Positions 42,242 to 47,901 of a stretch of 54,595 nucleotides of DNA are shown piece by piece. The position numbers were made by a program, and so were the translations under genes. Under the pieces are notes generated by a model that did not search any database, was not told the DNA's origin, and was given only the letters and a program-made list of their open reading frames with translations. Every line of letters starts with the position of its first letter. The stretch's first letter is position 1. Source of the DNA: an uncultured Peptococcaceae bacterium (lineage in GTDB: Bacteria > Bacillota > Peptococcia > Peptococcales > Peptococcaceae). The DNA is taken from NCBI GenBank assembly GCA_949743265.1, contig CATJSX010000049.1, positions 1 to 54,595 of the forward strand, given 5' to 3'.

Positions 42242-42964
42242 CTACAGAACTTTAGCCAAAAAATCTTGCGTTCGTTTTAATTGCGGCTTACTGAATAAAT
42301 CAGCTGGTTTGCCTTGTTCCATAACAATGCCTTCATCCATAAAAAACACGCGATCACTGACTTCACGGGCAAAGCCCATTTCGTGAGTAACGATAATCAT
42401 GGTCATACCCTCTTTGGTCAAATCACGAATAACATTCAGCACTTCGCCAACCATTTCTGGATCTAAAGCGGAAGTTGGTTCATCAAAGAGCATGATTTTA
42501 GGCTGCATTGCCAAAGCGCGAGCAATCGCTACACGCTGTTGTTGTCCACCCGATAAGGTATTGGGGTAAACGTTGGCTTTTTCCGCTAAGCCAACTTTTT
42601 GCAGCAACTGCAAACCAATGTTTTCCGCTTCACTTTTGCCCATGCCTTTAACTTTGCGGGGAGCTAAAGTAATATTATCCATTACTGTCATATGAGGAAA
42701 TAAATTGAACCGCTGAAACACCATACCCAAATTTTCCCGCATTTTATTAACGTTATGAGATTTATCAGTAATGCTTTCGCCATTAATAACGATCTCGCCA
42801 CAAGTTGGCTCTTCCAATAGATTGATACAACGCAAAAATGTACTTTTACCGGAGCCAGAAGGACCAATAACAGAAACAATTTCTTTTTCAGCAATAGTTT
42901 CCGTCACTCCTTTAAGGACTTCCAAATGACCAAAACTTTTGTGCAGATTCTTAATTTCTATCAT
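42242..42964 (-). CDS. Polar amino-acid ABC transporter ATPase (GlnQ/HisP type)
   Basis: 240 residues from the ATG at 42964, with AAGGAG nine bases upstream. Walker [11 protein letters not shown]-loop [17 protein letters not shown], signature [15 protein letters not shown], Walker [15 protein letters not shown] and H-loop [21 protein letters not shown] are all present, and the wording of these is typical of glutamine/histidine family ATPases. It is the last gene of binding protein-permease-ATPase. Known role: powers uptake of a polar amino acid; which one is not readable. Confidence 0.94.
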
Positions 42965-42968
42965 GATA

Positions 42969-43694
42969 CTAGACTCCTTTCCGACTAGCTTTTGCTTTTT
43001 TAGGACGGCGATGACTGTCGCCAGCCGAAATTTTCCGCTCTGTCCAATTAACAAACCGTGTAATCACAAAAGTAAGCGCTAGATAAACGGTAGCGACACC
43101 CAAATAGGTAGGAAAAGGCGCCATATGTACTGAAGTATAGATTTTTCCTGCCTGAAAAATTTCTGTTAAACCAATTGCTGATAATAAGGAAGTATCTTTC
43201 AGCAAAACAACAAATTCATTACCTAAAGGCGGAATAGCTTGTTTGACAGCTTGAGGTAAGACAACATAAAACATGGCTTTGGTGTGACTCATACCCAAAG
43301 AGCGAGCTGCTTCCATTTGTCCTTTATCTACTGATTGAATCCCCGCACGGAAAATTTCTGCAACATAAGCACCGCTGTTCAAACCACAGACAACAATAGC
43401 CGTCGTCATAATCTGAAAAGAAAAAGGCTGTCCAATAAATTCTTTAATCAACGAAGATACGCCATAATGAAACAAGAAAATCTGCACAAATAACGGTGTT
43501 CCTCGCAGACATTCAATATAAATATTGGCTGGAATCTTGAGCCAAAGATGCTTGCTCATTTTTGCCAAAGCCATTAACATACCAATGATAATCCCGATAA
43601 TAACTGCAATGATTGTGATCTTGATGGTATATTCGGCGCCGCCAACCAATTTTGGCAGCACAGCCCAATAATTTTCCCAAAAATTGTTCATCAT
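42969..43694 (-). CDS. Polar amino-acid ABC transporter permease (HisM/GlnP type)
   Basis: 241 residues; ATG ATG start at 43694/43691, the second being better spaced from AGGTGA. Five or six membrane segments. The family signature is clear in [46 protein letters not shown] (EAA loop) and [24 protein letters not shown] Lys/Arg-rich tail follows. As a single permease gene it would form a homodimer. It starts just 4 bp upstream of the ATPase gene and is separated from the binding-protein gene by a terminator. Confidence 0.94.
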
Positions 43695-43787: not shown

Positions 43788-44612
43788 TTATTCAGCACCC
43801 ATTTCATCAGCAATACCATACTGCTGATATAATTTGTCGTAAGTTCCATTTTCCATTACATTGGCTAAACCAGTATCCAACATGGTTTTTAATTCTTCAT
43901 TCCCCTTTTGAATACCAAAACCATAACTATCACTAACAATAGCTTCACCAGTCATTTTGATGGTATCTGGCTGTTTGTCGATATAAGCTCTGGTAACAGG
44001 GACATCATTGATAACCGCATCAACACTGCCGTTGGTTAATTCCAACATACATAAATCATAATCCTGCAAAAGTTTAACTTCTGCTACTTTGCCTTCTTCG
44101 TATAAAGCATTGCATTGATCAGCACCAGTCGTACCGATTTGAGCAGCGACCACTTTGCCAACTAAATCATCAGGACCGTTGATATCTTCATTGTCAATGC
44201 TGACAGCAATAGCCAAGCTGGCCTTTACATACGGATCACTAAAATCAATTTGCTCTAAACGAGGTTTGGTAATAGACATCCCTGAAGCGATAACATCAAT
44301 CGTGCCATTTAATAATTCCTGTGTTAAAGCATCAAATTCCATGCTTCTAATTTCGACTTCATAGCCTTGATCAGCAGCAATAGCCGTAATCAAGTCAATA
44401 TCAAAACCGCTGATATTGCCGTCGTCGTCTTGAAATTCAAAAGGCGCAAAAGTAGGATTCGTTCCAACGATGATGGTTTTAGTTTCCGTTTGTTGCTGAT
44501 CGTCATTGCCGCCGTTTTGTGCCGGTGCTTTTTCCCCGCTGTTGCAGCCCGCCATCAACAACATCGTGCCCATCAACAAAGATGAAACCAACACCTTACT
44601 TAATTTTTTCAT
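43788..44612 (-). CDS. Polar amino-acid-binding lipoprotein (SBP family 3)
   Basis: 274 residues from the ATG at 44612, with GGGGGAG six bases upstream. Lipobox LLMAGC with Cys23. The mature protein carries the family-3 signature: IIVGTNPTFAPFEFQDDDGNISGFDIDLITAIAADQGYEVEIRSMEFDALTQELLNG followed by MSITKPRLEQIDFSDPY. Known role: extracellular capture of a polar amino acid for the adjacent permease. It has its own promoter (44657-44685). Upstream is the DnaA-box cluster at 44759-44841. Confidence 0.94.
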   Translation of the reverse strand: MKKLSKVLVSSLLMGTMLLMAGCNSGEKAPAQNGGNDDQQQTETKTIIVGTNPTFAPFEFQDDDGNISGFDIDLITAIAADQGYEVEIRSMEFDALTQELLNGTIDVIASGMSITKPRLEQIDFSDPYVKASLAIAVSIDNEDINGPDDLVGKVVAAQIGTTGADQCNALYEEGKVAEVKLLQDYDLCMLELTNGSVDAVINDVPVTRAYIDKQPDTIKMTGEAIVSDSYGFGIQKGNEELKTMLDTGLANVMENGTYDKLYQQYGIADEMGAE

Positions 44613-44656
44613 TTGTAACTCCCCCATAAAAAGTTATATTTAGTAAGCTGTTTATA

Positions 44657-44685
44657 ATTATACGGGGCAATGCATAAAATTGCAA
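44657..44685 (-). promoter_or_regulatory. Promoter of the amino-acid ABC operon
   Basis: Minus strand: -35 TTGCAA (44680-44685), 17-bp spacer and perfect -10 TATAAT (44657-44662). Confidence 0.7.
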
Positions 44686-44758
44686 TAATTTTTTTGCAGT
44701 TTATCATTTTTTTGTTTTTAACGACAGTAAATTTTGCCTTCAAATCAAAATCTGCTGT

Positions 44759-44841
44759 TGTGGATAATGTGGATAAGTCGGTGGATAACTGACAATAAGT
44801 CATTTTTCGTTGTGGATTCAGCTCAAGAATATTGTGGATAA
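44759..44841. other. Cluster of DnaA-box-like 9-mers
   Basis: On the plus strand TGTGGATAA (reverse complement of the consensus DnaA box TTATCCACA) occurs perfectly at 44759-44767, 44768-44776 and 44833-44841. A one-mismatch copy (GGTGGATAA) is at 44780-44788 and a two-mismatch copy (TGTGGATTC) at 44811-44819. All have the same orientation, within 83 bp. The flanks are AT-rich. No dnaA or dnaN is adjacent. Confidence 0.75.
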
Positions 44842-45166
44842 GCTGTGAAAAGTTTTACCAAAAATTTGAACGCCATAAATTTCGGCTAAAAAATTTCTTG
44901 GCGCTACTGGTGGTTTAAATTATGTTCTTGTTTTTCTTAGATTGCACCATCATAATCCGTTTAGTTTTTCCAACGCCATGACTTTTCTTCTTTATGTCTT
45001 GTTACTATGATGTTTTCTATTTTTTTGCAGATGGTTATCCTTGAATTTATACAGATTTCTATTTCATATGAAACATTTTTTTGTTAAAATAAAAGATACC
45101 CTGCTTATTGCTAATATATCAATAAAAGACTTGAGCGTTTTCGTTTTTTTCAAAGGAGATTTTGTC
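44842..45166. other. Intergenic region right of the DnaA-box cluster
   Basis: AT-rich stretch before the next gene. It includes a perfect 12-bp palindrome TTTCATATGAAA near 45062-45073 and TAAAAT-like -10 hexamers with poor -35 partners. An in-frame upward extension of the next ORF across this stretch lacks a ribosome binding site, so I treat it as non-coding. Confidence 0.4.
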
Positions 45167-45991
45167 ATGGATAAAGTCATCGACCAAGCCAAAGCTGCCA
45201 CAGAGATCTTACAAAATTACCGCCAACAGACAAAGGACGACTTATTTTGCCGTCATTTTCATTTTCGAGTAAACCGCAATGATTACACTATTGTCGCCAC
45301 CACACATCCTAATTATTATTGGCACTATCTGCTTTGTAATCGTGCAGCACTACCAATACATATAGAGCAATTAGATGATTATGTACGGAGCGGACGCTAT
45401 TTAACGGTTTCTCTAAAAGAAATCGGTTTTGTGCCTTTTGTTGGCAGGCTCAGTTGCCAGCAGGCGCAATACCGCTGTGCGCTAATCAATACCATGAGTA
45501 CGCATCAACCGCTTTTAGAAGCATTGGCATTATCATCGCTTCATTTTATCACCTCGGAATTATCGTTGTATCGTCATGATGACAGCACCAGTCCTCTCAT
45601 TGTCAAATTGGATCAATGGCGTCAAAAACATCTTGGCGAAATTTGTCCAACTACTGGATTTAGACGTAAACTGGATTTATTGGCTCACGGTGTAACGCTA
45701 TCGGGTGAAGATATTTTATTGATTTTTACAATATGTTCATCGGCTGAAGCAGTCCCCAAAGCCAAAAAAGAACTACATGATTATCGGGCATATTTAGCCA
45801 TCCCTGATAAAGCAGCTTTACTAAAAGCGCTTTTAGCCGTTTATCCCGTTCACCAGCTATCATCATTTACGCAGGTCCGTTATGTGGTCTTATGCGGTTT
45901 TGATGAAACGATTGACCGAGTAAAAAGCGATCGACGAGGCTTTACTACGGTTTATTTTCACATGACTGATGAGCCAAAAACCAAAAAATAA
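45167..45991 (+). CDS. Hypothetical protein, 274 aa, upstream of uvrC
   Basis: Start ATG at 45167, AAAGGAG eight bases upstream; earlier in-frame starts have no site. Soluble, mixed alpha/beta composition, no signal peptide. It has four scattered cysteines and several His/Tyr clusters (CRHFHFRVNRNDYTIVATTHPNYYWHYL), none forming a metal motif that I recognise. No family assigned. It is 29 bp upstream of uvrC in the same direction, so the two are probably cotranscribed. A DNA-repair role would be guesswork. Confidence 0.65.
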   Translation: MDKVIDQAKAATEILQNYRQQTKDDLFCRHFHFRVNRNDYTIVATTHPNYYWHYLLCNRAALPIHIEQLDDYVRSGRYLTVSLKEIGFVPFVGRLSCQQAQYRCALINTMSTHQPLLEALALSSLHFITSELSLYRHDDSTSPLIVKLDQWRQKHLGEICPTTGFRRKLDLLAHGVTLSGEDILLIFTICSSAEAVPKAKKELHDYRAYLAIPDKAALLKALLAVYPVHQLSSFTQVRYVVLCGFDETIDRVKSDRRGFTTVYFHMTDEPKTKK

Positions 45992-46020: not shown

Positions 46021-47901
46021 ATGGATTTACAGACTAAATTAGACAATTTGCCGACCAAACCGGGCGTCTATCTGATGAAAAACGAAGACAATCAAATTAT
46101 TTATGTAGGCAAAGCGGTCAATTTAAAAAATCGCGTTCGTTCTTATTTTCGCAAACAGCCCAAAGAAGCCGCCAAAACACGCGCTTTAGTCAATCATATC
46201 AGAGATTTGGAATATATTGTTGTAGACAGTGAGCTGGAAGCGCTAATTTTAGAATGTAACTTGATCAAAAAATATCGTCCTAAATATAATATTAGCCTTA
46301 AAGATGACAAAACATATCCTTATATCAAAATTACCAAAGAAGATTATCCCCGTGTGCTCATCACTCGCCGAATCCAAAAAGACGGCGCTCGTTATTTTGG
46401 TCCTTACCCCAGCGCTGGTATGCTGAAAGATACGCTGGAGTTGGTGCGAAAGGTTTTCCCTTTTCGCAGCTGCCAGCAAAAAGTATTCACCAACAGTCGT
46501 CCTTGTTTAAATGGCTATATTCAGAAATGCTATGCGCCCTGTGTAGGCAAAATCACTAAAGAAGATTATCAAAAGCTGATTGAGGAAATCGTACAATTTT
46601 TCGAAGGAAAGCAAGAGCAACTACTGACCAAACTTTCACAAGAAATGAATGATGCAGCAGAAGCGCTAGAATTTGAGCGGGCAGCCCGACTACGAGATCA
46701 ACTCCAAGGGATTCAGCAAATCATCACAACACAAAAAGCAGCGTTAGCCAGTGAAAATGACGAAGACATCATCGCTATGGCAAGAGGCATTGGTGAAGCC
46801 TCTGTACAAATTTTTTTCGTGCGGGGCGGCAAAATTATCGGCAGAGAAAATTATTTTCTCAGCAATACTGATGAAAGCAGCCGCAGCGAAATACTGACTT
46901 CTTTCGTCAAGCAGTTCTATATGAATAGCCAGTTTGTACCGCCGGCCATTTTAGTGGAAACTGACTTAGAAGAAAAAGACTTGCTGACGCAATGGCTTAG
47001 CGAAAAACGAGGGACTAAAGTTACTATCAAAATTCCCAAACGCGGTCAGCAAAAAGATTTGCTGGAAATGGTTGGTAAAAATGCTTTGGAGGCCTTGTCT
47101 AAAAAAGAAATGGAATTGGAACATCAAAAAATACGTACAATCGGCGCTTTAGAAGAATTAAAACGTTATTTAGGATTAGACGTTTTGCCTAAACGCATAG
47201 AATGCTACGATATTTCTAATACACAAGGAACAGAAAGCGTCGGTTCTATGGTGGTTTTTGAAGATGGCAAGCCCAAAAAAGATCAATATCGCCGTTTCAG
47301 AATCAAAACTGTGCAAGGTGCTAATGATTTTGCCAGTATGTACGAAGTATTGACGCGCCGCTTCGCTCATGCTAAAACCGACCACGAAAAAGGCAATGAT
47401 GACGGTAAGTTTGCACGATTACCTGATCTTGTTATCATTGACGGCGGTAAAGGTCAGCTGCAATTTGCTCGCCGCGCAATGGCAGAGCAAGGTTTTAGCG
47501 CTATTGCTACTTATGGCTTAGCCAAAAAAGAAGAATTACTCTTTCGCGAAGATGAACCGGATCCCATTGTGCTGCCCAGAAATTCGCAAAGTTTGTTTTT
47601 GATTCAGCGAATCCGCGATGAAGCGCACCGTTTTGCTATCACTTATCACCGGTCTTTGCGAGGCAAGCGCAATTTGGCTTCCATATTAGATGATATTCCC
47701 GGCGTCGGTGAAAAACGCAAAAAAAACCTTTTGCAGCATTTCGGTTCTTTTAGTAAAATTCAGGAAGCCTCTGTAGAACAGTTGGCTGAAGTAGAAGGTA
47801 TCAGCCATACCGTTGCTGAAGAAATTTATCACTATCTGCAAACTCATCAAGATTTGCAAGCCCGCCTGAAACAAATAAAACCAGAGGAAAGGAAGAATTA
47901 A
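46021..47901 (+). CDS. uvrC: UvrC: excinuclease ABC subunit C
   Basis: 626 residues, normal length, AAAGGAGG upstream. Domains in order: GIY-YIG nuclease (~12-95; GVYLMKNEDNQIIYVGKAVNLKNRVRSYF), a cysteine-containing segment (SRPCLNGYIQKCYAPCVG) that in relatives holds an iron-sulfur cluster, UVR motif (~200-235), RNase H-like C-terminal nuclease (YDISNTQGTESVGSMVVF, LVIIDGGKGQL) and helix-hairpin-helix pair (~560-615). Known role: makes the 3' and 5' cuts in nucleotide excision repair. The stop is one base before the next start. Confidence 0.97.
   Translation: MDLQTKLDNLPTKPGVYLMKNEDNQIIYVGKAVNLKNRVRSYFRKQPKEAAKTRALVNHIRDLEYIVVDSELEALILECNLIKKYRPKYNISLKDDKTYPYIKITKEDYPRVLITRRIQKDGARYFGPYPSAGMLKDTLELVRKVFPFRSCQQKVFTNSRPCLNGYIQKCYAPCVGKITKEDYQKLIEEIVQFFEGKQEQLLTKLSQEMNDAAEALEFERAARLRDQLQGIQQIITTQKAALASENDEDIIAMARGIGEASVQIFFVRGGKIIGRENYFLSNTDESSRSEILTSFVKQFYMNSQFVPPAILVETDLEEKDLLTQWLSEKRGTKVTIKIPKRGQQKDLLEMVGKNALEALSKKEMELEHQKIRTIGALEELKRYLGLDVLPKRIECYDISNTQGTESVGSMVVFEDGKPKKDQYRRFRIKTVQGANDFASMYEVLTRRFAHAKTDHEKGNDDGKFARLPDLVIIDGGKGQLQFARRAMAEQGFSAIATYGLAKKEELLFREDEPDPIVLPRNSQSLFLIQRIRDEAHRFAITYHRSLRGKRNLASILDDIPGVGEKRKKNLLQHFGSFSKIQEASVEQLAEVEGISHTVAEEIYHYLQTHQDLQARLKQIKPEERKN

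Follow-up and report, generated by a model that had tools for sequence, protein, structure and literature searches.

A conserved DnaA-box module outside oriC in Peptococcaceae and their relatives, a probable replication-timing control site

Introduction

In Bacillus subtilis, deletion of six DnaA-box clusters located outside oriC results in early initiation (PMC5295017, PMC13220808), and, according to a 2017 review, these clusters are strongly effective only upon removal of all six (PMC5295017). One of the major regions of DnaA binding in this species, with 10 boxes and a preference for ATP-DnaA, is located between gcp (tsaD) and ydiF: at 55 nM, 16-fold more of its DNA was recovered with ATP-DnaA than with ADP-DnaA (PMC4447404). 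The datA, DARS1, and DARS2 sites of Escherichia coli are non-coding and carry conserved boxes at a conserved relative distance from oriC (PMC4585315).

The window analysed here, a 54,595-nucleotide stretch (contig CATJSX010000049.1, referred to below as C49) from the genome of an uncultured member of the Peptococcaceae (assembly GCA_949743265.1), contains a box cluster that, judged by its sequence, is a strongly conserved, fixed-geometry variant of the same type of element, a DnaA-box cluster outside oriC. Similarly to the B. subtilis clusters, particularly the one at gcp/ydiF, it consists of dense intergenic boxes away from dnaA, sister copies are found beside tsaD (gcp), and in the relatives the module tends to be proximal to oriC. 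The window copy differs in its location, a comF/fliT-[ABC operon]-hpf locus that none of the eight major B. subtilis regions occupies (PMC4447404). A further trait of the module is its constant 31/12/9 spacing, the comparison with the B. subtilis 168 cluster being one of locus. No description of a conserved module of this kind was found in the literature searched, which did not extend to Okumura 2012, the main B. subtilis cluster paper, so an earlier description is possible.

Results

The box cluster and its surroundings. An earlier note, made from the sequence of the window, had reported four boxes in the same orientation within 83 bp, three of them perfect and one with a single mismatch, plus a weaker fifth box, and had considered a chance origin very unlikely. 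The search for boxes recovered the same set on the minus strand, namely, perfect TTATCCACA boxes at 44759-44767, 44768-44776, and 44833-44841 and a TTATCCACC box with one mismatch at 44780-44788. Composition-based Poisson estimates give ∼43 perfect boxes expected by chance per 3.04-Mb genome and ∼1e-7 clusters of such density per genome, in agreement with that judgement. In the entire genome, same-strand TTATCCACA/TTATCCAC pairs separated by at most 60 bp are found only in the dnaA-dnaN region, in the window cluster, and at 98150-98323 of contig C152. The flanks are as AT-rich as had been stated, with 25% GC at 44628-44758 and 33% GC at 44842-45040.

Alignment of 33 copies revealed a conserved module of ∼62 bp (44758-44819, minus strand) with four same-strand boxes, whose 5' ends are separated by 31 bp (box 1 to box 2), 12 bp (box 2 to box 3), and 9 bp (box 3 to box 4). 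The weak fifth box of the earlier note, GAATCCACA at 44811-44819, turned out to be box 1 of this module, its position being conserved in the alignment. Box 2 (44780-44788) is the single-mismatch box, located 3 bp from box 3 (44768-44776), which directly abuts box 4 (44759-44767) with a 0-bp spacer. The third perfect box (44833-44841) does not belong to the conserved module and lies 22 bp upstream of box 1. The spacer between boxes 1 and 2 consists of an A-tract followed by a T-rich stretch (roughly AAAAnnCCnnnTnTT) and is partly conserved; it is possibly a bend or the site of a partner protein.

Downstream of the cluster, all on the minus strand, are a promoter of the ABC operon predicted from a consensus match (TTGCAA-17-TATAAT, 44657-44685, ∼73 bp from box 4) and the genes for an amino-acid ABC transporter substrate-binding protein (43788-44627; matches to the glutamine/arginine/cystine-type families with scores under the curated cut-offs), a permease (42969-43694), and a GlnQ-like ATPase (42242-43054). 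On the other side, on the plus strand, an open reading frame for a 274-aa protein (45167-45991; ATG start, AAAGGAGA upstream) precedes uvrC (46021-47901). The 274-aa product had 0 NCBIfam matches, and its gene was not found adjoining the module in relatives. The place of uvrC beside the module is not conserved either, and a link of the cluster to uvrC or DNA damage was rejected: the gene families that flank the module in relatives exclude the uvrC of the window.

Conservation and geometry. The earlier note had proposed conservation in relatives as a check on the cluster. Within the family, order, and class, DnaA boxes are present ∼120 to 550 bp upstream of most genes orthologous to that of the downstream substrate-binding protein, and its paralogs lack them. 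With the abutting pair as the anchor of the alignment, the 31/12/9 spacing is shared by most of these upstream regions; three or four species, all from a single genus of the family, have retained the abutting pair alone, with an inverted box after it. Of the 46 class genomes, 28 contain the abutting pair itself (TTATNCACNTTATNCACA) and none (0 of 46) contains the reversed control pattern. A sequence-only search model built from the 33 copies detected the module in 42 of the 46 class genomes, every best E-value being below 1e-6, and in 143 of the 199 sampled genomes of the phylum at E ≤ 0.001 (about 100, by hand count, at E ≤ 1e-6), usually in one to three copies per genome. The model matches the window copy at 44758-44817 with 52 bits, the window being one of the training copies; these copies had been selected via the abutting pair, so the score of boxes 3 and 4 is partly a matter of construction. 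Independent support comes from the copy on C152, from genomes outside the training set, and from the recurring loci.

The C152 copy (98172-98231, 45 bits), which was outside the training set, is the second one in the same genome and lies between yigZ and a thioredoxin-like gene; the surrounding segment, 98150-98323 (L010:7150-7325), carries four further boxes on the opposite strand. Several other members of the family also have a module copy at yigZ/trx. Two loci (L151, in G016:C144, and L221, in G013:C101) contain two or three module copies within ∼2 kb around a nitrilase/acetyltransferase-like gene adjoining the transporter, as if this stretch had been duplicated. The outgroup cyanobacterium (Leptolyngbya) had no module match at E ≤ 0.01. 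A second intended outgroup control, WTXA01000002.1 (L055), labelled as a Fusobacteria bacterium, was dropped; its contig has the same length (861,263) as G141:C2, from a genome assigned to the phylum of the window, and its label looks wrong.

Loci of the module. The 27 strongest phylum-wide copies fall mainly into two loci: 13 are located beside tsaD (gcp), 11 in the comF/fliT-[ABC operon]-cspA-hpf interval, and 3 elsewhere. The yigZ/trx location constitutes a third locus within the class. The window represents the comF/fliT-hpf locus after a rearrangement that kept the ABC operon and the module, with the gene for the 274-aa protein and uvrC now upstream. Positional orthology with the known B. 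subtilis cluster holds for the sister copies at tsaD/gcp, the window copy being at another locus. Beyond the phylum sample, matches beside tsaD were found in three Oceanobacillus species, Siminovitchia terrae, Phascolarctobacterium faecium, and Desulforadius tongensis. Their E-values range from 2.5e-9 to 4e-4, some being weak taken singly, and it is the position common to all of them that makes them credible. The 12/9 spacing is recognizable by eye in the tsaD copies of Oceanobacillus and Siminovitchia (Bacillaceae); in Phascolarctobacterium, the order of the boxes is different.

Chromosomal position. The genome of the window is split into 208 contigs, and the position of the module was assessed in 28 single- or few-contig relatives, with dnaA mapped separately and genome sizes rounded to 0.1 Mb (except for G037). 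Of the 30 non-oriC copies, 25 are in the chromosome half nearer dnaA (P = 1.6e-4), as are 18 of 21 when one copy per genome is counted (P = 7e-4); the loci are shared by descent, so these counts are less independent than the P values assume. The proximity of the tsaD and comF/hpf loci to oriC may also have causes independent of the module. Transporter-linked copies are located 387 kb (G037) and 484 kb (G154) from dnaA. The orientation of the module relative to fork movement showed no bias (13 of 28 co-directional). In addition to dnaA, four genomes (G065, G166, G196, and G221) encode a second, shorter protein (∼325 to 353 aa) with the DnaA C-terminal DNA-binding domain.

Discussion

The best explanation of the cluster is that it represents one copy of a conserved module for DnaA binding, which would act as a DnaA-box cluster outside oriC and limit or condition the DnaA available for initiation, a reading to which a probability of about 0.7 can be attached. 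Several strong boxes lie close together away from oriC, as expected for a DBC-type cluster, and a box set of fixed geometry recurs at the same few loci in many relatives, which makes it a probable control site for replication timing. What stays constant across the loci is the module and its place, and what varies is the adjacent transcription unit; a locus of the B. subtilis type fits this pattern. The earlier note had pointed to such clusters, and this part of it is supported by the copies at tsaD/gcp, the phylum-wide conservation, and the preference for the oriC half in relatives. DnaA would assemble at the module, away from the origin, and the assembly would limit or condition the DnaA that is available to start replication. 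The boxes keep constant distances, which points to an ordered DnaA oligomer that this spacing could seed, and the 3-bp gap between boxes 2 and 3 matches the preference of E. coli DnaA for box pairs 2 to 3 bp apart (PMC11317965). Doubling of the site after passage of the fork might then draw DnaA off oriC and restrain re-initiation. Counting against this explanation, a simple sink would need less than a fixed spacing, and the module in the window is close upstream of a predicted promoter.

A displaced replication origin element, as suggested in the earlier note, could account for the dense boxes and the AT-rich flanks, and weak module-like matches do occur at the oriC of a few genomes. However, there is hardly any likelihood that the window cluster is a displaced or secondary origin. 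The dnaA gene of this genome is located on another contig (C33), flanked by oriC-type box clusters, and its dnaA-dnaN region has TAGx7 beside a box, that is, a DnaA-trio array, whereas no DnaA-trio was found at 44501-45100. Within the window, the sign of the GC skew flips in short blocks with no lasting switch at 44.8 kb, and in the relatives the module lies hundreds of kilobases from dnaA. The idea of a displaced oriC was therefore rejected. The oriC of the same genome (rpmH/rnpA-dnaA-dnaN) does share with the module the 9-mer and the 12-bp box 2-box 3 pair (16 bits; 24 bits at the oriC of G037), but it differs in carrying the TAG trio array and in the absence of the complete module with the abutting pair. 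The weak matches at G081:C1:1569-1629 and G217:C1:1687-1820 lie just downstream of the region coding for the C terminus of DnaA, i.e., at oriC, hinting at an origin subregion as a possible source of the module. Accidental resemblance of the boxes to the sites of some other protein is also highly improbable. Boxes 1 and 2 are degenerate, as such a reading would allow, but their variation follows TTATNCACA/TTATNAACA, as is typical of DnaA boxes; the oriC of both this genome and G037 also has the box 2-box 3 pair, and the tsaD copies coincide with a region of proven DnaA binding in B. subtilis (PMC4447404).

The remaining alternatives accept DnaA as the ligand and concern what its binding does. 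Activation or repression of the promoter at 44657-44685, coupling amino-acid uptake to the replication cycle, would resemble the DnaA-regulated promoters, such as that of B. subtilis sda, in having boxes upstream of a gene start with a predicted promoter, here 73 bp downstream of box 4. The orthologous gene of many relatives is preceded by boxes oriented towards it, the paralogs lack them, and the upstream neighbours of the gene vary between families; transporter-specific regulation was favoured at the first comparison. It lost ground once the module was found without the transporter. In contrast to such promoters, the module is kept without the gene and is absent from some carriers of the gene: at least 10 loci (in G030, G035, G026, G034, G031, and G042, plus four more loci in the phylum) retain it between fliT/comF and cspA-hpf and lack a transporter within the stretch examined; conversely, a transporter ortholog without boxes is found in G001, G003, and several phylum genomes. 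Joint conservation of cluster and transporter was thus not observed, the two being separable both ways, and a locus that sequesters DnaA or controls its state is favoured over a regulator dedicated to the transporter. The distance from the boxes to the start codon is also variable (∼120 to 550 bp), and at tsaD and yigZ/trx the genes next to the module are unrelated ones. The case for regulation of the amino-acid operon is thereby weakened, and dedicated control of this operon appears unlikely. Given the predicted promoter, the nearby operon could still be regulated in this genome as a secondary effect. A more tenable, albeit tentative, alternative is a variant of the best explanation that differs in the chemistry involved: a datA- or DARS-like site would change the nucleotide state of DnaA instead of just sequestering it. 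This is the most interesting reading, since the constant spacing suggests ordered DnaA assembly. The distances among the four boxes do not change between families and loci, conservation extends in part to the A/T-rich spacer that separates boxes 1 and 2, the gcp region of B. subtilis yielded 16-fold more DNA with ATP-DnaA (PMC4447404), and the E. coli sites are similar to the module in being non-coding DnaA-box sites, with a comparable 12-bp direct pair in DARS2. However, the match to DARS2 is a weak partial one of 12 bits that spans this pair, DARS2 has no abutting pair, and identity with DARS2 appears unlikely. The datA site is known to require IHF. B. subtilis, for its part, does without IHF, Hda, and other E. 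coli regulators (PMC13220808). The phylum-wide 31/12/9 module at tsaD and comF/fliT-hpf might, with the odds against it, be an active regulator of the DnaA state and not a passive titration sink, which would make it the equivalent of datA/DARS in bacteria where no such site is thought to exist.

On the preferred reading, that of a DnaA-box control locus outside oriC, the module probably helps set replication timing and is neither a second origin nor a private switch of the transporter, and it would account for an otherwise odd box cluster beside a transporter. The finding bears on the question of initiation control by chromosomal DnaA-box clusters in bacteria other than E. coli, and on the mode of such control, sequestration of DnaA or a change in its nucleotide state. 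A discrete module of constant spacing, found at the same loci across the phylum and at tsaD/gcp in Bacillaceae, may offer a short sequence in which the spacing can be varied to separate the two modes.
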